This document shows, in pieces, positions 13,808 through 56,833 of a DNA stretch of 64,000 nt. Within the stretch, counting starts at the first letter, position 1, and the number at the start of each line of letters is the position of its first letter. Under the pieces are notes generated by a model, which saw nothing but the letters and a program-made list of their open reading frames with translations, had not been told where the DNA came from and did not search any database. Made by a program: the position numbers and the translations under genes. Source of the stretch: Bacteroidales bacterium (lineage in GTDB: Bacteria; Bacteroidota; Bacteroidia; Bacteroidales; Tenuifilaceae); contig JAFGDZ010000079.1 in the NCBI GenBank assembly GCA_016931855.1, forward strand, positions 1 through 64,000. The letters run 5' to 3'.

Positions 13808-15982
13808 TTAAAAGCGTTCGTAACCATCATCGGCCTTATTGTCGGAAAGGAAGTTGAGCTTTGTGCCCTTGTTTCCTTTAGGTTTTAGCTCAGTAGCAGG
13901 ACTTGCTTTAGGCGATGAAACGCTTGGCTTTGGTTGCTCCTTTTTCTTTTCATCCAAAGGTTTCTCCCCTTTGCTTGCAGCAACAGGTTTACTCATAACC
14001 TTAACCGCTGGTTTTGGCGCACTTTTGTCTATTTCGGCAAATTGAGTTTCACTCTTTACCTTTACCATGTGCTGCTTTGCGGATGTGGCCTTAGCTGCAT
14101 CAACCTTAAAGAATCCAACAATCTGCTTCATCTGTTCGGCCTGGCTGCTTAGCTCCTCGGAACTAGTTGCCAGCTCCTCCGATGCGGCAGCATTCTGCTG
14201 CGTAACCTGATTTAGCTGCTGTATGGCGTTGTTTATTTGATCGGCACCGCTGTTCTGCTCAATACTTGCAGCGGTAATCTCCTGTACAAGCTGAGCGGTA
14301 CGCTCAATTTCAGGAACCATTTTATCCATCAACACAGCAGCCTCTTCAGTAATATTTAGGCTGGTTTTTGAGAGCATCGATATTTCGTCGGCAGCAACCT
14401 TGCTACGCTCGGCTAGCTTACGAACCTCGGCAGCCACTACGGCAAAGCCCTTTCCGTACTCCCCTGCCCTTGCGGCCTCAACAGCAGCATTTAGAGCCAG
14501 TATATTGGTTTGGAATGCGATATCGTTAACAATGGTAATCTTATCGGCAATAAGCCTCATGGAGCTTAGGCTGTCCTTGGCCTTTTTGCCAACCTCCTCT
14601 ATGCTGGTTGCAGCGCTGTGTGCAATTACCTCGGTTTGCTTTGAGTTATCGGTGTTCTGCTGAATATTGGCCGCCATCTCCTCCATGGAGCTGGATACCT
14701 CCTCGGCCGATGAGGCCTGCTCATTAGCTCCCTGCGAGAGCTGCTCGGAGCTGGAGCTAATTTGGCTGGATGCCGAGGCAATATGGTCGGCACCCTGTTT
14801 AATTCCCGAAACTACATCGCGCAGCTGAACCACCATTCGATCTAGCGACTCGGAGAGCAAGCCCAGCTCATCGTTAGAGTAGGTTGATGAGGTAACGGTT
14901 AAATCGCCATCGGCTATTCTCTTTGTGGTATCGACCATGGCTACAATTGGGCGCACAAGCCTTACCATAAACACCCACAAAATGAGTAGGCTTATTGCCA
15001 TTAGCAGCAGCCCGGCAATTACCATCCTATAGGTCATTCCCATTGCCTCTTCCTGAATAATGCTGGTAGGAACCTGTATGTTTACCTGCCAAGGGCTATC
15101 GGTCTCAGCAAAGTAGATGGGAACAGAAACCTCAATAATATCGCCCATTTGCACAACAGACTCTTTACCTGCTTTAATATCGGAAAGCTTGCGCTGAGAT
15201 ACATCGGAGGCGTAGAGCTCGGTTAAGCTTTTGGCCGCAACCGACTCGTTGTTCTTCTCGGCTACAATGGTACCGTTATTTGAGATTACGTTGATATTGG
15301 AACGACCCTCAAATATATTGCTCTCATCCACCATTTTTTGGATAAAGGTGCTTGAGATATCGGCACCCACAATTCCATAAAACGTATTGTTGTTTACAAT
15401 TGGGAAAATGGTTGATACAAGAATCACTTTATTTCCCTGCACATTCCAGTAAGGATTTGAAACAAAGGGCTTTTTGGTATTCCTTGGAACTAAGTAGTAA
15501 TCCTGATCGTTATAACCAGCACCAGTAACAAGAATAGCTCCTCCATCGCGGCGATTCCAGTAAGGAATAAACCTACCAGTTTGGTCGTGCCCCTGCTGGT
15601 TAACAAACTGGGCATCCAAACCATCAAACTGATTTGGTTCCCACATGGTATAAGTAGTAAAAAGAACGCCGTTATCTACCAATACCTTTTCAAGCATTGC
15701 ATTAGCCTCTGCACGAGATAAGCTAACGGGATTCTCTTTCGATTTTATTGTTGAAAATGCATTTGCCAAGTAACGGGTTGCATTTAGGGCACGCTCAACC
15801 TCAAGTTTTATATTTTGCGCATAATCGCGCGAGGTCAGCAGCGCCTGATTCTCTGCATTAGCAACGGCTCTTTCCCATGCAATGTAGGAGCTTACGGTTA
15901 CTAGCGTTGCAACGGTTAAAAAGATACCAATCCCAACAATAAACTGAAGCTTCACCTTAAATGACACAAAACGTTTCTTCAT
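13808..15982 (-). CDS. Methyl-accepting chemotaxis protein with double Cache sensor
   Basis: A 724-residue transmembrane chemoreceptor. TM1 spans about 13-36. A periplasmic double-Cache (dCache_1) ligand domain spans about 40-315, with the typical [14 protein letters not shown] and a later ISNPYW-like stretch. TM2 lies around 322-345, then HAMP (about 345-400), then a long signalling coiled coil with the conserved hairpin tip [21 protein letters not shown] Lys/Pro/Ser-rich linker of about 80 residues ends in GYERF, which resembles the NWETF pentapeptide that tethers CheR and CheB. The amino-acid-binding Cache motif was not evident, so the ligand is unknown. It is the only receptor in the window and could feed the CheA/CheW system encoded 38 kb away. 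Confidence 0.93.
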
Positions 15983-46723: not shown

Positions 46724-47797
<1,074 letters not shown>

Positions 47798-47819
47798 CTA
47801 GTATCTGTTTGCTAAAGAT

Positions 47820-48299
47820 TTACTGACTTTGTCCCAGCGTTTTCTCTATGTAACGCTGTTTTACTTCTCCTGTTGCAGTATCGTATTCGATTTTTCTACC
47901 AAGTTTACCTCCCACGCTCTTAGCTAATATTGGAATCCTAAGATCCTCAAGGGCTTCAAAGGCAAGCTGAATGTTTCTGGCGCCAATGTTAAACTGAGAG
48001 ATTGTAGTTTCAATAACCTCTCCCCCTCCAAAGACCTTTGCCTGTAAATTTGAGCGCTTTGCTCCAAGTGAGACCATTTTCTCAACCAAACGCTCAATGG
48101 CTATATTACCGTACTTAGGACTAGCTAAGCCCTGACCATTCCATAGAGGAAGCATATAGTGATTAATGCCGCCTATCTTACTAATGGGGTCGTAAAGGCA
48201 AACGGCCACGCATGATCCCAGAATTGTTGAAACCTTATGCGGAGTAGCACTGGCAAACAACGCTGCAGGATACAGGAAATGTAAAGGTTTATCTTCCAT
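47820..48299 (-). CDS. cheD: Chemoreceptor glutamine deamidase CheD
   Basis: A 159-residue deamidase that converts specific receptor glutamines to methylatable glutamates. The catalytic Cys is in TILGSCVAVCLYD, the His in GGINHYMLP, and the Thr/Ser-containing KVFGGGEV loop follows. In other bacteria CheD is stimulated or sequestered by the phosphatase CheC; no CheC is encoded here, which makes the partner question interesting. It lies 11 bases after the histidine-kinase-like gene and 25 before cheB. Confidence 0.95.
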   Translation of the reverse strand: MEDKPLHFLYPAALFASATPHKVSTILGSCVAVCLYDPISKIGGINHYMLPLWNGQGLASPKYGNIAIERLVEKMVSLGAKRSNLQAKVFGGGEVIETTISQFNIGARNIQLAFEALEDLRIPILAKSVGGKLGRKIEYDTATGEVKQRYIEKTLGQSQ

Positions 48300-48310
48300 C
48301 CCTGCTTAAT

Positions 48311-49249
48311 TTAAAATGTTTCTTCGTTACTAAAGAATGTTTCGTTAGCATCGGAAGCAAAGTCGTTGGTAGATTCCTCTGCTTCGGGAATGGTTACTGT
48401 AAACGTTGAGCCTTCGCCAAGTTCACTGGCCACCTCCATTCTCCCTTTAAGCATATCAATAATTGCCTTATTTACAGATAGGCCTAACCCATGTCCCCTA
48501 TTTAAAGAGTTAATACCTGAATCAACCCGCCTAAACCTATCGAATATGATTTTTTGGTTCTCCTTGGAAATACCAATACCATAATCCTTTACGCTTATTT
48601 TAAGATCAGTCCCCTCTATCCAGGTAGTTACCTCAATGGCTCCTCCCTCAAAGCTAAAGTTTACGGCGTTGCTTAGCAGGTTGGAAAGAACCATTCTAAG
48701 CTTTTCTGGGTCGGTTTTAAAGGTAAACAGCTGGCTTTCGGATTTTACAGTAAAGTTGTGGGTGGCAGTAATCCGCTTCTTCTTTGTCTCAAACTTAAAC
48801 GACTCTACAACGCTATCGATAAGGTTATGGATGTCAACATTAAAAATCTCGGGAAAGATTTCGCCTGCCTCTATTTTGGCTGCAACAAAAATGTTGCGGA
48901 ACTGAAAATCGAGATGAAAAGCCTCCGAATGAATTAGCGCTACCATAGAGATTACCTTTTTCCAGTTCTCCTTGTCAACAGAGAGTATGGCTCTGGATAA
49001 TCCAAGTATTGATGTAAAGGGGTTAATAATCTCATTGGTGATGTTGGATATAAAGTGGCTTTTAAGCGACTCTGATTCTTCCAACTTTTTATTTACATTC
49101 CTAAGCTCATCGTTAAGATTCTTAAGCTCAAGAACCGCATTCTTATTCTGCTCAAAGCGTCGCCTAAGCTCATCTAGCAGTTCGGTATCAGTTAATCGTT
49201 GCTCCATATCGTTTTCGGTTTGTAAATAACTGTAGTTGAATAAATTCAT
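48311..49249 (-). CDS. Histidine-kinase-like protein lacking the phospho-acceptor histidine
   Basis: A 312-residue soluble protein. An N-terminal coiled coil (about 15-60) leads into a HisKA-like helix pair and a GHKL ATPase domain (about 150-290). The H-box reads SNITNEIINPFTS, where SHExRTP would be expected, so the acceptor His is Asn (N72, codon AAT read directly). The ATP site appears complete: N box SNLLSNAVNFS, G1 VKDYGIGIS, F box FDRFRR and G2 RGHGLGLS. There is no receiver domain. It lies between cheR and cheD. It may be a pseudokinase that binds ATP, or it may phosphorylate or dephosphorylate something in trans. A start at 49207 (MEQRL) is equally possible. Confidence 0.85.
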   Translation of the reverse strand: MNLFNYSYLQTENDMEQRLTDTELLDELRRRFEQNKNAVLELKNLNDELRNVNKKLEESESLKSHFISNITNEIINPFTSILGLSRAILSVDKENWKKVISMVALIHSEAFHLDFQFRNIFVAAKIEAGEIFPEIFNVDIHNLIDSVVESFKFETKKKRITATHNFTVKSESQLFTFKTDPEKLRMVLSNLLSNAVNFSFEGGAIEVTTWIEGTDLKISVKDYGIGISKENQKIIFDRFRRVDSGINSLNRGHGLGLSVNKAIIDMLKGRMEVASELGEGSTFTVTIPEAEESTNDFASDANETFFSNEETF

Positions 49250-49339
49250 TTACCGCTACTTCTTTTTACATACCAGCCTGCGAGGCTGTATGTAGCTAGA
49301 TTGGATTTGAACCTGCACTGGTTCAAAAAGGTAATTTAG

Positions 49340-50197
49340 CTATAATCGTTGAAATATGGTAGGCTTTATCTGTTTTAGTGGCACATCCATGTTCATTATT
49401 GACTCGGAATGCCCCAAAAAGAAGTATCCTCCAGACTTGAGCTTGCTGCAAAGCTTATTAATAACCTTTTCCTGTGTAGCTCTATCAAAATAAATTAGCA
49501 CGTTACGACAAAATACTACATCAAATGTCTCGGGCAAATCGTAGTAGGCATCCATAAAATTTAGCCTACCAAACCTAACCTTCCTGCGTAGCTCTGGAAT
49601 AACTTTAACGGTAGGGTTTGTTCTATCCTTGCTTTTTAGAAAGTACTTACGCTTAATCTCTATGGGAATATTTGCTACCCTATCCTCTTTATAAACGGCA
49701 TCTACCGATTTTTGGAGGATTTGGGTTGAGATATCGGTACCAACAATACTGTAATCCATTCCAGAGTTAGCATTAGCAAACTCCTGAAGTACAATGGCTA
49801 TTGTGTAGGGCTCCTCGCCACTGGAGCATCCTGCGCTCCAAATTTTTACGGTACTATTTGATCGCCTGTTCTCATAAAGGGCGGGTAGCACCTCCTTAGA
49901 TAGAAAGTCGAAATGAATGGGCTCTCTAAAAAAGTCTGTTTTATTTGTGCTCACCACATCAAGCATATGGATAATTTCAATGCCTGTATTATCCTTATGA
50001 AAAACGTAATCGCAGTAATCCTTAAACGAGGTCATTTTAAGCTCCCTAAGCCGCTTTTGAAGGCGGCTTTGGAGCATAATCTTCTTAACCTGAGGCATTT
50101 TAATGCCACTCTCTTTGTAAATGAAGCTACTAAGCTTATCAAACTCATCCTGAGAGAGCTGGGCTCGGTATATCTCATTCAAATTAGGATCGAACAT
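49340..50197 (-). CDS. cheR: Chemotaxis protein methyltransferase CheR
   Basis: A 285-residue S-adenosylmethionine-dependent methyltransferase that methylates receptor glutamates. The N-terminal helical domain (about 10-90) has the LSSFIYKESGIKMPQVKKIM pattern. The catalytic domain has the SAM loop IWSAGCSSGEEPYTIA, IVGTDIS and VVFCRNVLIYF, followed by GYFFLGHSES at the end. Domain content and length are standard. It lies 24 bases downstream of the porin-like gene and 90 upstream of the kinase-like gene. Confidence 0.96.
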   Translation of the reverse strand: MFDPNLNEIYRAQLSQDEFDKLSSFIYKESGIKMPQVKKIMLQSRLQKRLRELKMTSFKDYCDYVFHKDNTGIEIIHMLDVVSTNKTDFFREPIHFDFLSKEVLPALYENRRSNSTVKIWSAGCSSGEEPYTIAIVLQEFANANSGMDYSIVGTDISTQILQKSVDAVYKEDRVANIPIEIKRKYFLKSKDRTNPTVKVIPELRRKVRFGRLNFMDAYYDLPETFDVVFCRNVLIYFDRATQEKVINKLCSKLKSGGYFFLGHSESIMNMDVPLKQIKPTIFQRL

Positions 50198-50221: not shown

Positions 50222-51496
50222 CTAAAAGTCGTACTGTAATGCGAACAGGAATCGTGTGTTCCCTACTAAATCGCTATTAATAACCTTTGCTTTATTGGCA
50301 ATGTCAATAGCGCCATAAGCAGCGGCGGTGTACTCAACTTCAAATGCAAATAAGTACTGGTTCTTGCGGTACATAATATTGGGTGCTACGCGGAACATGT
50401 AGTCAATATCGGCACCTCTGCCGTAAATGCTTGTGGTTGCAACAACATTATCCTGGGCTCCTAAGTTTTTAGCGTATCCACCAAATAGGCCAACCTGAAA
50501 ATCTTTGCCGTATGTAACATTTGCAAATGCAAAGAGGTGGCGAAGCGAGGTATAGGTTTCGGCTCCGGTTTGGGCATCAACGGTTGCCACGCCGTAACCA
50601 CCAAGCATTAGATGGTCTGCAAGGTTTTGCCCGTACATTACCTTTGTTCTAATAGTTAGCATATCGGCCTGAACCTTAAGGTATGCCATACCCGATAACG
50701 TGTTAATGCGCTCAGATGTAACGTACTTTGAGGTTCCGTCGGCAGGCGAAACGGTAAAAAGCCTAGGACGAAGGCTCTTAAAATCGGCAGCAAGGCCAGC
50801 TGTTACGGAGCTACTCTTCACCTGTAGCTGAGCAAAAAGGTTGGGTATTGTGGAGTTTCTTAAAAAAGAGGATGAGGCTATTGCTTTGCCTGGGGTTTCG
50901 GGGTCGGGGCCAAAGCTTTTATAATCGCTCTGGTGAATGGCCGATATGGTACCAAATAGCCCTGGGGTAATCTCGTGAGTAAGCGTAAGCTGTGGGCTAC
51001 GGTTAAAACTTTGGAAAGGAGCACCAGTGCTTAGCCCTACTAAGTAAGGGTAAACATCGGTAACAAACATGGGATGCCACGTTTGGCCGGCCATAAGCTT
51101 TGTTTTGCCCCAATTTAGCGTAGCAAGAGCATGCCTAAAACGGAAATGAACGTTAGAGCTAAGTCCGGTAAAATCGGCCTCAACGAGTATTGTGGACTTT
51201 GCGCCAAAAATATTGGGCATAGTAATGCTTGTACGTAGGCGAGTGGCCATGGCCAACGAGTTAAACCCTGGAGCGGCTAAAATATCTTCACCATTAGCAT
51301 CTGCCATAGGTGCTTTAGGATACAGAAGGAATAGCCCATCAATGGCTTCTACGTTTTGCCTAGTATCGTACCAGTACTCTACGCGAAAGAAGCCTCCAAA
51401 ATCTAGCTTGGGCTTGGTTATAGTAGTTGTATCGGTTAAAGCAAAAGCACTGCTAGCAAGCGTGCTTACAAATAGAAATAGGTATAATTTCCTCAC
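50222..51496 (-). CDS. Porin-like outer-membrane protein in the chemotaxis locus
   Basis: A 424-residue protein with a signal peptide (MRKLYLFLFVSTLASSAFA) and a barrel-like body ending in Phe (NTRFLFALQYDF). It resembles DcaP-like or other 16-stranded porins, with GGFFRVEYWYDTRQNVE as the first strand and TKLMAGQTWHPMFV typical of that group. GTG is the start codon at 51496; an in-frame TAA four codons upstream excludes a longer form and no ATG gives a signal peptide. It lies between cheW and cheR, after a long inverted repeat. Solute unknown; a link to chemotactic sensing is inferred only from position. Confidence 0.75.
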   Translation of the reverse strand: MRKLYLFLFVSTLASSAFALTDTTTITKPKLDFGGFFRVEYWYDTRQNVEAIDGLFLLYPKAPMADANGEDILAAPGFNSLAMATRLRTSITMPNIFGAKSTILVEADFTGLSSNVHFRFRHALATLNWGKTKLMAGQTWHPMFVTDVYPYLVGLSTGAPFQSFNRSPQLTLTHEITPGLFGTISAIHQSDYKSFGPDPETPGKAIASSSFLRNSTIPNLFAQLQVKSSSVTAGLAADFKSLRPRLFTVSPADGTSKYVTSERINTLSGMAYLKVQADMLTIRTKVMYGQNLADHLMLGGYGVATVDAQTGAETYTSLRHLFAFANVTYGKDFQVGLFGGYAKNLGAQDNVVATTSIYGRGADIDYMFRVAPNIMYRKNQYLFAFEVEYTAAAYGAIDIANKAKVINSDLVGNTRFLFALQYDF

Positions 51497-51675: not shown

Positions 51676-52197
51676 CTAGCCAATCTCCTCTATCTCACTA
51701 GTTTTCTCGGTTTCTACGGCTTTATCTTTCATGCTAGAGAGCTCATCAGATGAGAACACTGAGTCCATATTCAGGATCATGATAAAGCGATCGTCGATAT
51801 TGGCTACGCCCTCAATAAATTCCGACTTATACTTACTCCCTATGCTTGGTGCAGGTAGAAGAGTGTTCTCGTCCAGTTCAAGAACGGCTTGAACAGAGTC
51901 AACAAGTGCTCCTACGTGAATTGATTCCCCATCCATCTCAATGTCAAGAACAATAATACAGGTGTTAGTTGTATATACCGTTGGAGCCATTCCAAATTTA
52001 ATACGGGTATCAATAACAGGCAGTACGGTTCCCCTAAGGTTAATAACACCCTTCATGTACTCGGGAGCCTTAGGGACCTCTGTTATTTTAGTCATTTCCA
52101 AAATATTAAGCACCTTACCTACATGTGCCGCAAATTCTTCTTCTCCTAGCTTAAATGAGAGGTAGGAGTTTATTCTCGATAAATTTTCCTGATTCAT
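51676..52197 (-). CDS. cheW: Chemotaxis coupling protein CheW
   Basis: A 173-residue scaffold that joins receptors to CheA. It is a single CheW domain (about 8-150), with the two SH3-like barrels marked by SYLSFKLGEEEFAAHVGKV, MKGVINLRGTVLPVIDTR and IEGVANIDDRFIMILNMD. The C-terminal 20 residues are charged and probably flexible. It starts 29 bases after cheA stops. Standard length with no fused receiver, so CheW rather than CheV. Confidence 0.96.
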   Translation of the reverse strand: MNQENLSRINSYLSFKLGEEEFAAHVGKVLNILEMTKITEVPKAPEYMKGVINLRGTVLPVIDTRIKFGMAPTVYTTNTCIIVLDIEMDGESIHVGALVDSVQAVLELDENTLLPAPSIGSKYKSEFIEGVANIDDRFIMILNMDSVFSSDELSSMKDKAVETEKTSEIEEIG

Positions 52198-52226: not shown

Positions 52227-54266
52227 TTACTTATTAGTTGTTACTTGCTTACTGGCGAATTGCTTTATTATCTTATTTGTATCTACAACCAGAGCTACCG
52301 TTCCGTCGCCCAGAATTGTTGCTCCCGATACCATTTCCTGACTCTTATAGTGCTTTCCTAGCGGTTTAAGAACTGCCTGGTACTCACCAACAACATGATC
52401 AACCACTAGGCCAACGCGTTTCTCCTCGTAGTTAACTACAACAACTTGCATAAACTCGCTATCAACGTTGCCAACATTAAACTCTTCGCGCAAGTTAAAG
52501 AACGATACCTGACGACCATCAAGAATTACTACGTTGTTGTACTTCTCATATATCTCCTTAGTAGGAACTGCGTAAATTTTATCTATTGCCGATAGTGGAA
52601 CTACGTAGTGCGTATCGTCAATCTTTACCAGAAGTCCATCAATAATAGAAAGTGTAAGCGGAAGCTTAATGGTAATGGTAGTTCCAACACCCTTTTCAGA
52701 GTCAATCTCAACCTCGCCGCGTATATCGGCTATCTTACGGCGTACCACGTCCATTCCAACTCCTCTACCCGACACATCGGTTACCTTTTTGGCTGTTGAG
52801 AAGCCTGGAAGGAATACAAGGTCGAGTGTTTCGCGTAGTGAGAGCTTTCTATCGGCGGCAATAATGCCCTTTGCAATGGCCTTTTCGCGGATAAGCTCAG
52901 GGTCGATACCCGCACCATCGTCACTTACCTGAATTAGCACGCTAGCACCAGAATAGAAGGCTTTTAGGATAATTTTCCCCTGGCGAGGCTTACCTAGCTT
53001 TTGGCGAACATCGGCATCCTCAATACCATGGTCGAGACTATTACGAAGGATGTGCATTAGTGGATCGGCAAGGCTCTCGATTATGGTTTTATCCAGCTCT
53101 GTATCTGAGCCTTCTGTAATAAATACAACATCCTTGTGCAGCTCGTTAGACAAATCGCGAACCAGCCTTTGGAAACGGGTTAGCATATTCTCAATAGGAA
53201 TTAGCACAATGCTAAATGCCGTATCCCTTAGCTGCCGCGATAGTTTCTGCACATTTTCTGCTATAGCAGTTAGCCCGGGAATGGCATTCTGCTCAGCAAA
53301 AAGGCTTAGGCGGGCTTGGGTTGTTACCAGCTCCGATACAAGATTCATCAGAACATCTAGTTTTTCTGACGAAACCCTGATGCTTGAAATGGTAGTATCC
53401 TTAACAGTAATTTTTTCGCGCTTAATTATGTCGGCCTGCTTCTGCTGCTGCTGCTTCATTACTTTCTCTGCTAAAGTTTGAAGCATATTGTACCCAATAT
53501 CCTCTTTCTCTGCAGCAATACGCTTGGCCTCGGCAACAAATGTTGAATCATTCAACAGATTCAAATCGGCAAGTTTCTGTATATCAAGACTTGACTCATC
53601 CTCAACAAAGATGAATACATCGTTTATAGCGTTGGTTCCCTCTTTGGTAACCAGTATTATTTCCCAGTAAGTATAGCAGTTCTCTGGGTTGATATCCTTA
53701 AGCTTAGGTACTCTATTCAGGTGTGCAAAAACTAGGCTATTCCCTAGCGAGGCAACCTCATCAATAAGGTATAAAGGATTGGTTCCGTTAGAAAAAATCT
53801 CCTTACGTGGTTCAAAAAGGATGTAGTAGGTACACTCATCGGCATTTGACAGTACCGATACCGATTCTGCAGCCTGCTCTAGTGCTTGTGGGGTATCAAT
53901 AAGTGAGGCTACGCGCAGCGTAAGCTGCTCATGAGCCCTAATAAAGTCCTTATCGGAGTAGTTATCCTCGTTAAGCAGCAGCTTAAGATGATCAACAGCG
54001 GCAAGGGTAACATCAAGTACTTGGCGAGTTACACGGAGACTTCCATTACGAATAAGGTCGTAAACTGTTTCCAAATCGTGAGTAAAGCGGTCTATTAAAT
54101 CGAAGCCAAACATACCGCTATTACCTTTTAGCGTATGCATAACCCGGAACACCTGCTGAATAAGAGCGGGATCGTCGGAATTCTCTTCCAGCGCAAGTAG
54201 AGCCTTTTCAAGACCGTCAATTAGATCGGTGGCCTCTTCTATGAATTTCTTTTTAAAGTTATCCAT
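52227..54266 (-). CDS. cheA: Chemotaxis histidine kinase CheA
   Basis: A 679-residue CheA that phosphorylates CheY and CheB. P1 Hpt domain (1-110) has the phospho-acceptor H44 in VMHTLKGNSGMFGF. Residues about 140-250 form an alternative P2-like regulator-binding domain. After a Gln-rich linker comes P3 dimerisation (about 300-355), P4 ATPase with HILRNSLDHGIED and SDDGAGIDPE, and a P5 CheW-like domain to the end. The ATG overlaps the cheY stop as TAATG, so they are translationally coupled. All key residues are present, so active signalling is expected, in contrast to the nearby His-less kinase-like protein. Confidence 0.97.
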   Translation of the reverse strand: MDNFKKKFIEEATDLIDGLEKALLALEENSDDPALIQQVFRVMHTLKGNSGMFGFDLIDRFTHDLETVYDLIRNGSLRVTRQVLDVTLAAVDHLKLLLNEDNYSDKDFIRAHEQLTLRVASLIDTPQALEQAAESVSVLSNADECTYYILFEPRKEIFSNGTNPLYLIDEVASLGNSLVFAHLNRVPKLKDINPENCYTYWEIILVTKEGTNAINDVFIFVEDESSLDIQKLADLNLLNDSTFVAEAKRIAAEKEDIGYNMLQTLAEKVMKQQQQKQADIIKREKITVKDTTISSIRVSSEKLDVLMNLVSELVTTQARLSLFAEQNAIPGLTAIAENVQKLSRQLRDTAFSIVLIPIENMLTRFQRLVRDLSNELHKDVVFITEGSDTELDKTIIESLADPLMHILRNSLDHGIEDADVRQKLGKPRQGKIILKAFYSGASVLIQVSDDGAGIDPELIREKAIAKGIIAADRKLSLRETLDLVFLPGFSTAKKVTDVSGRGVGMDVVRRKIADIRGEVEIDSEKGVGTTITIKLPLTLSIIDGLLVKIDDTHYVVPLSAIDKIYAVPTKEIYEKYNNVVILDGRQVSFFNLREEFNVGNVDSEFMQVVVVNYEEKRVGLVVDHVVGEYQAVLKPLGKHYKSQEMVSGATILGDGTVALVVDTNKIIKQFASKQVTTNK

Positions 54267-54631
54267 TATCTAAGCACTTTATTGAGAGCAGCTATGAGTT
54301 TTGCCGGAACAAATGGCTTTATAATCCAACCAGTAGCTCCAGCTTCCTTTGCCTCCATTTTCTTAGCGGCTTGCGACTCTGTTGTTAAAAAGAGTATGGG
54401 AACACGTTGGTAAGCCTCCATTTTTCTCACCTCCTTAATTAAAGCTATACCATCCATTTCTGGCATATGTAGGTCGGTAATGATAAGGTCTATAGGCGTT
54501 CCGTTTAAGAAGCGTAGCGCATCTTTGCCATCAACGGCAACGAGCACATTATACCCTTCGTTTTCAAGGGTAAAGCTAACTACCTCCCTAATACTTTCAG
54601 AGTCGTCAACTATGAGAATCGTTTTGGCCAT
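54266..54631 (-). CDS. cheY: Response regulator CheY
   Basis: A 121-residue single receiver domain. Acidic pair D9/D10 (LIVDDSESI), phospho-acceptor D53 (LIITDLHMPEMDG), Thr in LFLTTESQ and Lys in WIIKPF. There is no output domain, so it signals by direct contact, as in CheY, and its coupling to cheA (TAATG overlap) makes it the prime target of that kinase. A TTG three codons upstream is in frame, but ATG at 54631 is the natural start. The motor or partner it binds is not encoded in this window. Confidence 0.95.
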   Translation of the reverse strand: MAKTILIVDDSESIREVVSFTLENEGYNVLVAVDGKDALRFLNGTPIDLIITDLHMPEMDGIALIKEVRKMEAYQRVPILFLTTESQAAKKMEAKEAGATGWIIKPFVPAKLIAALNKVLR

Positions 54632-54666: not shown

Positions 54667-54999
54667 CTATTTGGTTATGATTAGGTTCTCTAATCCCGAA
54701 CGAGACAATAGCAGGGCTTGCTCACTACTGAGTTTAAACTCAGACTCAACCTTTTTTCCTTGCTCTGCAGCGGTTCGTTTTAGAGAGAAGATAAGCTGGA
54801 TAAGGCCTAGGTCTATGGCCTCCACGTTGTTAATCTTCACGGAAAGCTCTTTGTATTTAGTGAGGTTCTCTAACAAAAAATCTTTAATGGATACTATTTG
54901 ATCCAAAGAAAGGTCGCCTTGTAACATAAGGGTTGCCGATGCTCCCCCTTTTGCTTTTGAGGGCGATACTTTTAATGTGGCTTTTTTACTCTTATTCAT
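54667..54999 (-). CDS. STAS-domain protein
   Basis: A 110-residue protein with a basic N-terminal tail and one STAS domain (about 20-108), recognised by ATLMLQGDLSLDQI and VKINNVEAIDLGLIQLIFSL. In anti-anti-sigma factors this loop carries a phosphorylatable Ser (DSSG); here it is IDLG, so Ser-based switching is not expected, as in MlaB-like non-phosphorylated STAS proteins. STAS genes next to cheY and cheA also occur in chemosensory loci of other phyla, which suggests an adaptor role in the array. It lies 35 bases upstream of cheY and 19 downstream of the CheZ-like gene. Confidence 0.82.
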   Translation of the reverse strand: MNKSKKATLKVSPSKAKGGASATLMLQGDLSLDQIVSIKDFLLENLTKYKELSVKINNVEAIDLGLIQLIFSLKRTAAEQGKKVESEFKLSSEQALLLSRSGLENLIITK

Positions 55000-55018: not shown

Positions 55019-56833
55019 TTAGAAGAGCTCTATGTCGTCTTGCTGTTTCTTGCTGCTGGAGGAGTTATCGTCGAAAAGGTCAACATCGCCATCGGAGTCT
55101 ATCACCTTTTGGTGAATCTCATGCTCGCTGGCCATGGTGTAAAGCCTTTTAATTGAGTCCAGCTCCTCTGCACTCTTTTGGTCTCCACCAGTTCCTTGTA
55201 GCTGGTTATAAACCTTGTTTAGCTCTCCAATTATTTCAACAATAACCTTTTCAAAAAAGTCGTAGTACTTAATTTTACCAATAGCAGAGCTAACCTCGTG
55301 TGCAACGCTTTGCCCTAGTTCCAAGGTTTGGCTCAGCGTAAACTTAATACGGTCGTTCTTACTCTTAAGCACAACCATGATGCTATTTGTGCTCTCAACT
55401 ACCTGCGTAAAGTAGCTCTGTGGCCCATTGGCTTTTCTAAAATGCTCGTCGTTTGAGCATAGGCTATTAGCTGCATCGCATATGGAATTATATACGGAAG
55501 TTATTACCGCATGGTTCTTCTTTATTCCATTCAAAATAGAATGGGTTTGCTGTTGGGCCATTTCCTTATCAAGCGACATGGAAATAAGCTGGGTAAAATG
55601 CACGCTAGTTGGCTGGAAGTGGGATAGTAAATCCTCAATATTCTTGTTGAATCGGAATATCTCATCGCAAGCAGAAACGTTGTTCCGCTCAATTACCGTT
55701 ACAGAGTATGAGAAGTCTTGTATTTTCCCTACAAACGACGAGAGTACAGATGCAGCATTCTCAAGGTTGGTTAGGATATTTACTAGGTGTAGCTCATCGG
55801 TGTTTTCCTGCGATGCGCTTATCCTATTGCACATATCAGAAATGCTTACCATATCGTTACCAATTGCTTGGAAGCGCTGGGTAATTATTTCAATTGCCGA
55901 CTGGTACTCTTTATTTGCGAAAACGAGCTGTGCCGCTTGCAATCCTGCAATTTCACGAATTTGGGAGTACAGCTTTGCTACATCCTCCGACTTATCGTTA
56001 CCCGCATCAAAGGCTTCCAACCCTTCTATTATTCTCCTGTGTGTAGCCTGTATATGCTCCATCTTTTGGCGAATAATATCCTGATACTGAAGGTTGGTTA
56101 TAATCTCTGCTATGTTGGCCGAGCTGCTCTCGGTTTTAGCTGTAAGCTCTGGTATTAGCATTATAGCCTCTTCGTGCTTTTCGGCAAAAAGAATAATACC
56201 ATAGTGTATTTGATCTAGTATGGTATCAATTTCCCCAAGATTTCGTGATTGAAGAGAGCTTAATGAGTCGTACGCCTCTTTAACCCCTTTGCTAAGTGTT
56301 GCAATGTTATTCTCCGCTTGGTAGCTAGATATTTTTAACGTGTTGATAACCCCATTAAGCAGATTGAGCGCCGCGTTATACTCCTCTGTAACCTGTCTGC
56401 TGGGATCTGATCCAGACACCTTTATGTTTGCAAGTAAGAACTTAAGGGTCATTAAATCCTGGTTCAAGTTCTTAACGGGGATAAACAGCTGGTCGAAAAG
56501 ACCGACCATCCCCTTTAAATTATCAGAGCATCTGCCAATGCTTTGGGCAAACTGATTTCGAGTACTCTTAATGTCTTTGTACAGATTCTTTAGCTCCGAG
56601 AGTAATTTGGAGTGCTCCGTTTCCGTGAGAGTTTCAAAAATTTCTTTTGCGTTATCGGAAATGGTTTTTGCTTTGCGGTAACAGGACTTAAAATCCCCGT
56701 TTAACCCAAGGAAATCATCGGAAGAGCACTTATGTAGCTCTATTATTTGCTCATCAATCCTTCGGAAAAGCGACGAGATCTCTTTTACCGAAAAATCTGA
56801 ATTTACGCCTATTTTCTTCTCCTCTTTAGCCAT
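55019..56833 (-). CDS. Large helical chemotaxis-locus protein, candidate CheZ-like phosphatase
   Basis: A 604-residue cytoplasmic protein, almost all helix and coiled coil, with no receptor MA tip or membrane segment. One helix reads TNLQYQDIIRQKMEHIQ: D252 and Q256 have the Asp-x3-Gln spacing of the CheZ active site (QDLTGQ in E. coli), with the preceding Gln-Tyr-Gln-Asp like its F-Q-D. A related, degenerate helix IKYYDFFEKVIVEII lies at about 521-535. The C-terminus, after a Ser/Lys linker, is acidic and hydrophobic (DVDLFDD ... QDDIELF), reminiscent of the CheZ tail that docks on CheY. It is encoded two genes upstream of cheY. I infer a CheY-phosphate phosphatase, not proven; otherwise an array scaffold. 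Confidence 0.72.
   Translation of the reverse strand: MAKEEKKIGVNSDFSVKEISSLFRRIDEQIIELHKCSSDDFLGLNGDFKSCYRKAKTISDNAKEIFETLTETEHSKLLSELKNLYKDIKSTRNQFAQSIGRCSDNLKGMVGLFDQLFIPVKNLNQDLMTLKFLLANIKVSGSDPSRQVTEEYNAALNLLNGVINTLKISSYQAENNIATLSKGVKEAYDSLSSLQSRNLGEIDTILDQIHYGIILFAEKHEEAIMLIPELTAKTESSSANIAEIITNLQYQDIIRQKMEHIQATHRRIIEGLEAFDAGNDKSEDVAKLYSQIREIAGLQAAQLVFANKEYQSAIEIITQRFQAIGNDMVSISDMCNRISASQENTDELHLVNILTNLENAASVLSSFVGKIQDFSYSVTVIERNNVSACDEIFRFNKNIEDLLSHFQPTSVHFTQLISMSLDKEMAQQQTHSILNGIKKNHAVITSVYNSICDAANSLCSNDEHFRKANGPQSYFTQVVESTNSIMVVLKSKNDRIKFTLSQTLELGQSVAHEVSSAIGKIKYYDFFEKVIVEIIGELNKVYNQLQGTGGDQKSAEELDSIKRLYTMASEHEIHQKVIDSDGDVDLFDDNSSSSKKQQDDIELF

Follow-up and report, generated by a model that had tools for sequence, protein, structure and literature searches.

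Closest described systems

CheZ and the chemoreceptors both contain long four-helix bundles that resemble each other, and the acidic residue of CheZ that pairs with the lysine of the response regulator is D143. This type of pairing is described together with the insertion of a glutamine of CheZ, Q147, that orients water (PMC3035606). In E. coli CheZ, a pair of hairpins makes up a four-helix bundle, followed by a linker and a C-terminal helix; an AXXFQ motif has also been reported for CheZ (PMC7750401). Remote phosphatases of the CheZ type have been described before. CheT of Sinorhizobium meliloti carries a DXXXQ motif outside the recognised CheZ family, has a CheZ-like predicted structure and speeds the dephosphorylation of one of two CheYs. 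A STAS protein, CheS, is encoded in the same che cluster (PMC12654446). A route in which the receiver domain of CheA acts as a phosphate sink is discussed in PMC10542144.

Two other systems are relevant. DosM, found in F9 systems, is a single soluble chain with two signalling domains of methyl-accepting chemotaxis protein (MCP) type (PMC7534058, PMC9321776). The F7 stage-1 cluster has the order STAS, cheY, cheA, cheW, (receptor), cheR, cheD, cheB, and the organisms that carry it are described as having cheZ only in their F6 systems (PMC7184735).

The locus and its gene order

The window is the whole stretch of DNA that was analysed, 64,000 nucleotides of a Bacteroidales genome. It encodes a 604-residue protein, for which the original prediction had proposed a new, CheZ-like phosphatase. 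The ORF is found at 55019-56833 as predicted; its strand, previously unstated, is minus according to the ORF list, and the plus-strand frame at these positions contains many stops. The gene is present in one copy in the genome. No Pfam family is found above cut-off in the protein, no Pfam match to CheC, CheX or CheZ, and no NCBIfam match (NCBIfam CheZ included) even at E 1.

The predicted linkage with cheY and cheA holds: the gene is directly upstream of STAS-cheY-cheA. The minus-strand order is the 604-residue gene, a STAS-domain gene (54667-54999), cheY (54266-54631), cheA (52227-54266), cheW (51676-52197), a porin-like ORF, then cheR, a histidine kinase-like gene, cheD and cheB (46724-50197). 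The STAS protein (PF13466, 29.9 bits, cut-off 29.2) is CheS-like by its position. CheY (PF00072; ATG at 54631), the proposed substrate, keeps D57, T87 and K109 of E. coli CheY. CheA has Hpt, H-kinase_dim, HATPase and CheW domains above cut-off and no receiver domain; CheW has a single CheW domain (Pfam). The last four genes and the porin-like ORF were named by reading their sequence and served as blast references for the other loci; the order of the four is kept in L001-L004. A single-domain response regulator (PF00072; 56940-57323, minus strand) is encoded upstream of the 604-residue gene and has a counterpart upstream in L001-L004 and L017. By gene order alone, the cluster is like the F7 stage-1 cluster; unlike the latter, it adds the 604-residue gene ahead of the STAS gene.

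Some features of the operon are given as separate observations. The porin-like ORF (424 residues, 50222-51496) has no Pfam match; it is 55% identical to its counterpart in L001, and no blast match was found at that place in L002-L004. Sporulation-type STAS proteins usually have a phosphorylatable serine. The window STAS protein reads AIDLGLIQL at this site and is perhaps a non-phosphorylated, CheS-like partner of CheA. Two tandem cheY genes are found between STAS and cheA in L021, L022, L023 and L026.

The locus was predicted to contain no CheC, CheX or canonical CheZ. None was found, and family searches of the whole 4.08-Mb assembly, rated 98% complete, found none either. The CheA, CheB, CheD, CheR, CheW and CheY set and 17 chemoreceptor frames with MCPsignal matches (20 match rows) are accompanied by no CheZ, CheC or CheX match. 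As a route for ending the CheY-P signal, the CheA-receiver sink does not apply here because the window CheA has no receiver domain; a phosphate sink in another response regulator is possible. As a separate observation, chemoreceptors of the same genome (L053, L057 and the one at 13808-15982 of the window) end in YERF, which resembles the aromatic-x-x-F pentapeptides that tether CheR or CheB.

Homologues and conservation

A first set of homologues was obtained by pattern search with six patterns, none of which used the D252 motif described below as bait. One pattern was KYYDFFEK, so the conservation of this word in the first set is biased. The set consists of 27 relatives at 27-43% identity; their records carry the name Bacteroidales or Bacteroidetes, apart from one Rikenella MAG. 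When 395 genomes of the phylum were searched by profile, four distant homologues, each of about 600 residues, were added (L037-L040, refetched as L067-L070). Among the 14 genomes matched in that search, five have the family, one has a CheZ-like frame (L043) and the other eight have partial matches inside residues 290-552. A profile search of 295 genomes of the order gave matches in 44. One of these (G438, row L131) was rejected as spurious and its row dropped: the match covers 352-510 and the frame ends without the tail. L071, a copy of the query, was also dropped. Plasmid relatives were examined in two of the four records of one search, one new record of 13 of another and one new record of 60 of a third. 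The alignment used for conservation has 76 rows, including the Methylosinus plasmid protein L062, and forms 57 clusters at <90% identity (pairwise identity: median 22.6%, lowest 10.4%).

Only five residues, Q249, D252, Q256, H260 and F604, are invariant (57/57 clusters, 76/76 rows); all five are also invariant in A5, an alignment of 54 rows. The profiles that found the later rows contain the motif, which makes these rows dependent on it; most of them matched nearly the whole profile length. Four of the five residues lie in or next to the motif LQYQDIIRQK (residues 248-257; 56063-56092, minus strand), in which the predicted D252-x3-Q256 is present (codons at 56078-56080 and 56066-56068, respectively). 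The fifth ends the acidic-aromatic C-terminal tail DDIELF (residues 599-604; 55022-55039, minus strand), which the original prediction had described as acidic-hydrophobic and which is confirmed as conserved (F604 in 76/76 rows, E602 in 74/75). Another conserved element, YTMASEHEIH (residues 565-574; 55112-55141, minus strand), precedes the linker, with Y565 in 74/76, T566 in 73/76 and H574 in 72/76 rows.

This pattern bears on whether the protein acts on CheY-P or only binds it. As a scaffold or output target, it would bind CheY through its motif and tail and would not speed hydrolysis; it would be a pseudo-phosphatase localising CheY or relaying the signal. Motif and tail are both invariant, as such binding would have it, and H260 and Q249, for which CheZ chemistry does not account, are as conserved as the catalytic pair; the signal could then be removed by CheA and the STAS protein, as reported for CheA/CheS of S. 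meliloti (PMC12654446). However, both catalytic-type residues are kept in 76/76 rows, whereas a pure binder is expected to lose one of them somewhere, and the second copy of the motif (Gln at position 529 in 5/76 rows) shows that drift is possible. Mere binding of CheY-P is thus unlikely, and a phosphatase activity is the preferred reading.

Relationship of the motif to CheZ

The plain D-x3-Q spacing was rejected as evidence. Such words occur twice in the query, 2.6 times on average in family members and at least once in all eight same-genome chemoreceptors checked (in six of the eight as DIAFQ at the receptor tip). Even the longer word (L/I)Q-x2-D-x3-Q is found in three of the eight ordinary MCPs of this genome. 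The D252/Q256 motif stands above chance by its conservation, not by its spacing.

The family was compared with an alignment made of E. coli CheZ, seven CheZ of the phylum over the Pfam cut-off and L043, a 218-residue CheZ-like frame just under it (28.1 bits, cut-off 30.7). L043 had been matched unasked by the profile A1, at LQFHDIVTQK (E 2e-4). A 13-row family alignment matched the CheZ alignment at 68%, with D252/Q256 on D143/Q147 of CheZ. For A5, hhalign gave 59.9% over the whole length and 77.6% for residues 140-345, with the catalytic residues in register. The score of A5 was 40.5; the best of 40 column-shuffled CheZ controls reached 16.8 and reversed CheZ gave 0.3%. Chemoreceptors and the C half are the fairer controls, since column shuffling destroys helical periodicity: the family against the chemoreceptors of its own genome scored 25.5 (1.1%) and the C half against CheZ 16.8 (0.6%). 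In this HMM-HMM check of the original prediction, D252 and Q256 are in register with CheZ at 60-78%; the values are lower when the four distant rows are left out (20% and 51%). A1 alone aligned with CheZ at about 7% (6.7%), off the motif.

A 55-column HMM of the motif (A7), which includes no CheZ row, was searched against 483 sequences (Z=10,000). It matched eight of nine CheZ-type proteins at E<=0.65 (seven of nine at E<=0.02), always covering the D-x3-Q segment. The best CheZ-type match is L043 (2e-6), and the seven phylum CheZ over the cut-off range from 4e-5 to 0.65. A further L029 frame, apparently a second CheZ there, was also matched. E. coli CheZ was missed by this HMM, both in the 483 sequences and in a PDB search. 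Without the four distant rows, the HMM still matched seven of nine CheZ-type proteins at E<=1.3. None of the eight same-genome MCPs matched A7 at E 10.

Pfam CheZ (PF04344) matches none of 54 members at E 0.001, and a Pfam scan of isolated motif segments brought up no relevant family. NCBIfam CheZ touches the motif in two of seven relatives scanned, L064 (204-297, 2.5e-5) and L067 (221-277, 0.009), with scores far below its cut-off of 350 bits. Of the AXXFQ motif reported for CheZ, the FQ (or YQ) has its match in the aromatic-Gln/His ahead of D252; the Ala is absent in the query.

The family resembles CheZ (PF04344, NF041271) in its D-x3-Q pair, which follows (F/Y)-(Q/H) and lies on a returning hairpin helix, and in the subsequent linker and tail, the latter predicted here to be of CheY-binding type. 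It differs from CheZ by its size (604 against 214 residues), two hairpins per chain, an MCP-type scaffold and a degenerate second site. CheT is similar in its DXXXQ motif outside the CheZ family and in the STAS protein of its cluster; it was set against the 604-residue protein by description only, and no MCP duplication is mentioned in the available part of PMC12654446. A separate observation concerns CheZ-family proteins of the phylum (L031 at 1210-2217, also L030, L032 and L036), which carry one to five C-terminal SQDEIDALF-like words. These resemble the N-terminal CheY-binding peptide of FliM and are possibly several CheY-docking sites on one phosphatase.

A duplicated chemoreceptor hairpin

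The remainder of the protein is related to chemoreceptors. L037-L040 score 43-57 bits on MCPsignal (PF00015; cut-off 34.6), three of them (L037, L039, L040) in two stretches; in L037 and L039, the best stretch lies in the N half (110-256 and 104-243, respectively). At E 0.001, PF00015 matches four of 54 members, and it does not match the window protein. Searched against the PDB, the A5 profile, which includes the four distant rows, gave as its best three matches a Thermotoga maritima chemoreceptor (2ch7, 3ja6; E about 1e-14), aligned with the C half (profile positions 323-565); designed coils and myosins rank below. The N half matched MCP 3g67 at 2e-5 to 3e-5, among coiled coils. Alignments with the chemoreceptors of the same genome are negative (A1 2.2%, alignment A3 8.3%, whole family 1.1%). 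The relation to MCPs is drawn from the MCPsignal matches of distant members and single-hairpin relatives and from the A5 matches in the PDB, not from these alignments.

The two halves of the protein are related to each other. Aligned by hhalign, the N and C halves gave 92% (88% without the four distant rows) and a score of 52.5; none of 40 column shuffles scored above 16.1. This alignment places D252 on D525 and Q256 on K529. The degenerate second copy of the motif that had been predicted near residue 525 is thus explained by an internal duplication: it corresponds to KYYDFFEK (residues 522-529; 55247-55270, minus strand), whose position 529 is K in 50/76 and Q in 5/76 rows.

Structure prediction agrees with two hairpins. 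A full-length AF2 model, made from the A1 rows (first pattern-search set only), has a mean pLDDT of 77.7 and a pTM of 0.58. Its helix breaks at 141-145 and 417-420 coincide with the two MCP-tip-like stretches of the distant members in A3; pLDDT is <50 across residues 548-604, the stretch ahead of and including the conserved tail. The model of the N half (pLDDT 86.0, pTM 0.55) is a long antiparallel hairpin. This N-terminal hairpin (residues 72-277; 56003-56620, minus strand), which also corresponds to the PF00015 stretches of L037 and L039, turns at residues 141-149 (56387-56413, minus strand), the position of the MCP tip in L037-L040, and bears the motif on its returning helix of 127 residues. 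The second MCP-like hairpin comprises residues 349-544 (55202-55789, minus strand), as delimited by AF2 and the A5 match to 2ch7, and includes the break at 417-420.

Fold searches were less specific. Full-length searches returned generic helical bundles, TTYH channels and pore-forming proteins, read as a common arrangement. Chemoreceptors, among them Tsr (1qu7; Z 10.0, rmsd 4.8, 214 aligned), were matched by the N half; this supports the relation weakly because unrelated bundles reach equal Z. CheZ is not among the 50 matches listed by any of the four fold searches, full-length or N-half. The 14 matches of a single-sequence PDB search (13 haemagglutinin chains and one endoglucanase) were rejected as chance.

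Judged from its profile matches, the body of the protein is a tandem duplicate of a chemoreceptor signalling hairpin and not simply an enlarged CheZ. The earlier proposal of a distant, much larger CheZ is retained for the catalytic segment and not for the remainder. By the Pfam definition, the protein is not a CheZ; it is best described as belonging to a chemoreceptor-derived family that shares the catalytic segment of CheZ.

Two readings give the MCP likeness a more direct meaning. The protein could be a cytoplasmic array scaffold like DosM, whose two signalling tips would link one CheA/CheW layer to another. DosM is also two signalling domains in one soluble chain (PMC7534058, PMC9321776), and two MCPsignal stretches are found in L037, L039 and L040; in the window protein, only the duplication is seen. 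A regular expression for the MCP tip matches only L062 and L067-L070 of the 76 rows, and not the window protein; the invariance is on the motif, not on the tips. Unlike DosM, to which the family is likened by description only, the Bacteroidales rows have lost the tip consensus and keep the CheZ-like motif and an ELF/EFF tail. The window cheW encodes one CheW domain, whereas a triple CheW is described in the literature for F9 systems. Such a scaffold is improbable. A cytoplasmic input protein resembling a chemoreceptor, in which the motif would be a structural feature of the receptor class, is harder still to credit. Relatives with a single hairpin score on PF00015 and have been annotated as methyl-accepting chemotaxis proteins, and the (L/I)Q-x2-D-x3-Q and DIAFQ words of ordinary MCPs would fit, but the members scanned (Pfam tally, 54 members) have no sensory domain above cut-off, the motif HMM matches none of the same-genome MCPs, and the motif persists in proteins whose tip has eroded.

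Relatives carried by plasmids

A 343-residue protein of a Methylosinus plasmid (L064, 6608-7639), annotated as an MCP, has an MCPsignal domain (101-204, 3.7e-17) directly followed by the NCBIfam CheZ match at 204-297. Its sequence includes SIQFQDIVRQQVEQL and YVTEEQRNVH, and ends in RIELF. A Methylobacterium plasmid protein likewise combines an MCP tip with the motif and a terminal IELF. The gene order there is cheA, STAS-like protein (19.7 bits, cut-off 29.2), ParA, response regulator, motif protein. As a side observation, the motif is also found, together with stretches resembling the MCP tip and an acidic aromatic C-terminus, in plasmid proteins of about 575 residues in Agrobacterium (L066, 5737-7467) and Methylosinus (L062, 5989-7716). 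They are annotated as 'chemotaxis protein' and 'hypothetical protein' and are encoded near cheW-cheR-cheB genes.

Association with CheA and distribution of other phosphatases

Ten of the 27 loci of the first set have the gene followed by STAS, cheY and cheA. For the remaining 17, a group that is mainly from rumen Bacteroidales and includes short loci, no neighbouring cheY-cheA was found; in L007 and L025, a cheW-like gene directly follows the family gene. CheA was found in all 13 genomes tested, which were taken from loci without adjacent cheY-cheA and from other loci. Each of the four distant homologues immediately precedes cheY-cheA on the same strand; in L068, a STAS gene intervenes. In some rumen-type loci (L005, L007, L012, L016), the gene was observed to follow a glycosyltransferase-like ORF, DI(S/T)VIVPV(Y/F)NEDES, and a small membrane-protein-like ORF.

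Across the order, CheA is found in 80 of 295 genomes and in 43 of the 44 matched by the family profile, the exception being the spurious G438 (Fisher p 3e-28, relatedness ignored). The family gene is at most 6 kb from a CheA domain in 39 of the 44; in 38 of these it shares the strand of cheA and lies 1.6-3.5 kb upstream.

The known phosphatases are rare in the 80 CheA genomes: CheX is found in three (one with the family), CheC in two (none with the family) and CheZ over the cut-off in none. A CheZ match under the cut-off in G457 covers model positions 29-110 and leaves the motif part uncovered. The family is absent from 37 of the 80, and 35 of these 37 also have no CheC, CheX or CheZ over cut-off. 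CheA systems can thus run without a known CheY phosphatase, and a one-for-one replacement of other phosphatases by the family is unsupported.

Proposed function

The 604-residue protein is probably a soluble phosphatase of CheY-P that works by CheZ chemistry, with a pseudo-dimer derived from a chemoreceptor as its scaffold. Through the tandem duplication of the hairpin, one chain could form the four-helix bundle that CheZ builds from two chains. Hairpin, motif, linker and tail follow each other as in CheZ, except that here the hairpin is present twice and the second of the two sites is degenerate; an intramolecular pseudo-dimer with one active site is proposed on this ground. Gln256, which the first hairpin carries on its returning helix, would enter the active site of CheY and orient the water for attack on the phosphoaspartate, as Q147 of CheZ does, and Asp252 would pair with the CheY lysine in the manner of D143. 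The KYYDFFEK site of the second hairpin, having lost the Gln, would have a structural role; the 5/76 rows with Gln at the second position may differ from this one-active-site scheme. The acidic-aromatic tail, on its flexible linker, would tether CheY as a docking peptide.

A common origin of CheZ and this family in a chemoreceptor signalling hairpin is proposed tentatively, as a possibility somewhat short of an even chance. CheZ would then be a shortened hairpin keeping the catalytic segment. The 343-residue Methylosinus 'MCP' and proteins like it would represent surviving intermediates, and a fused, self-dimerised branch would be seen in the Bacteroidales protein.

Significance

No description of the family was recognised in the open-access PMC literature, a coverage outside which most subscription journals lie. 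The 604-residue protein is a specific, testable candidate for ending the CheY-P signal. A CheZ-type site on a chemoreceptor scaffold would account for the likeness of the CheZ and chemoreceptor bundles and would make the origin of CheZ directly testable. Some genes of alphaproteobacterial plasmids named 'methyl-accepting chemotaxis protein' or 'hypothetical protein' may encode phosphatases, not receptors.
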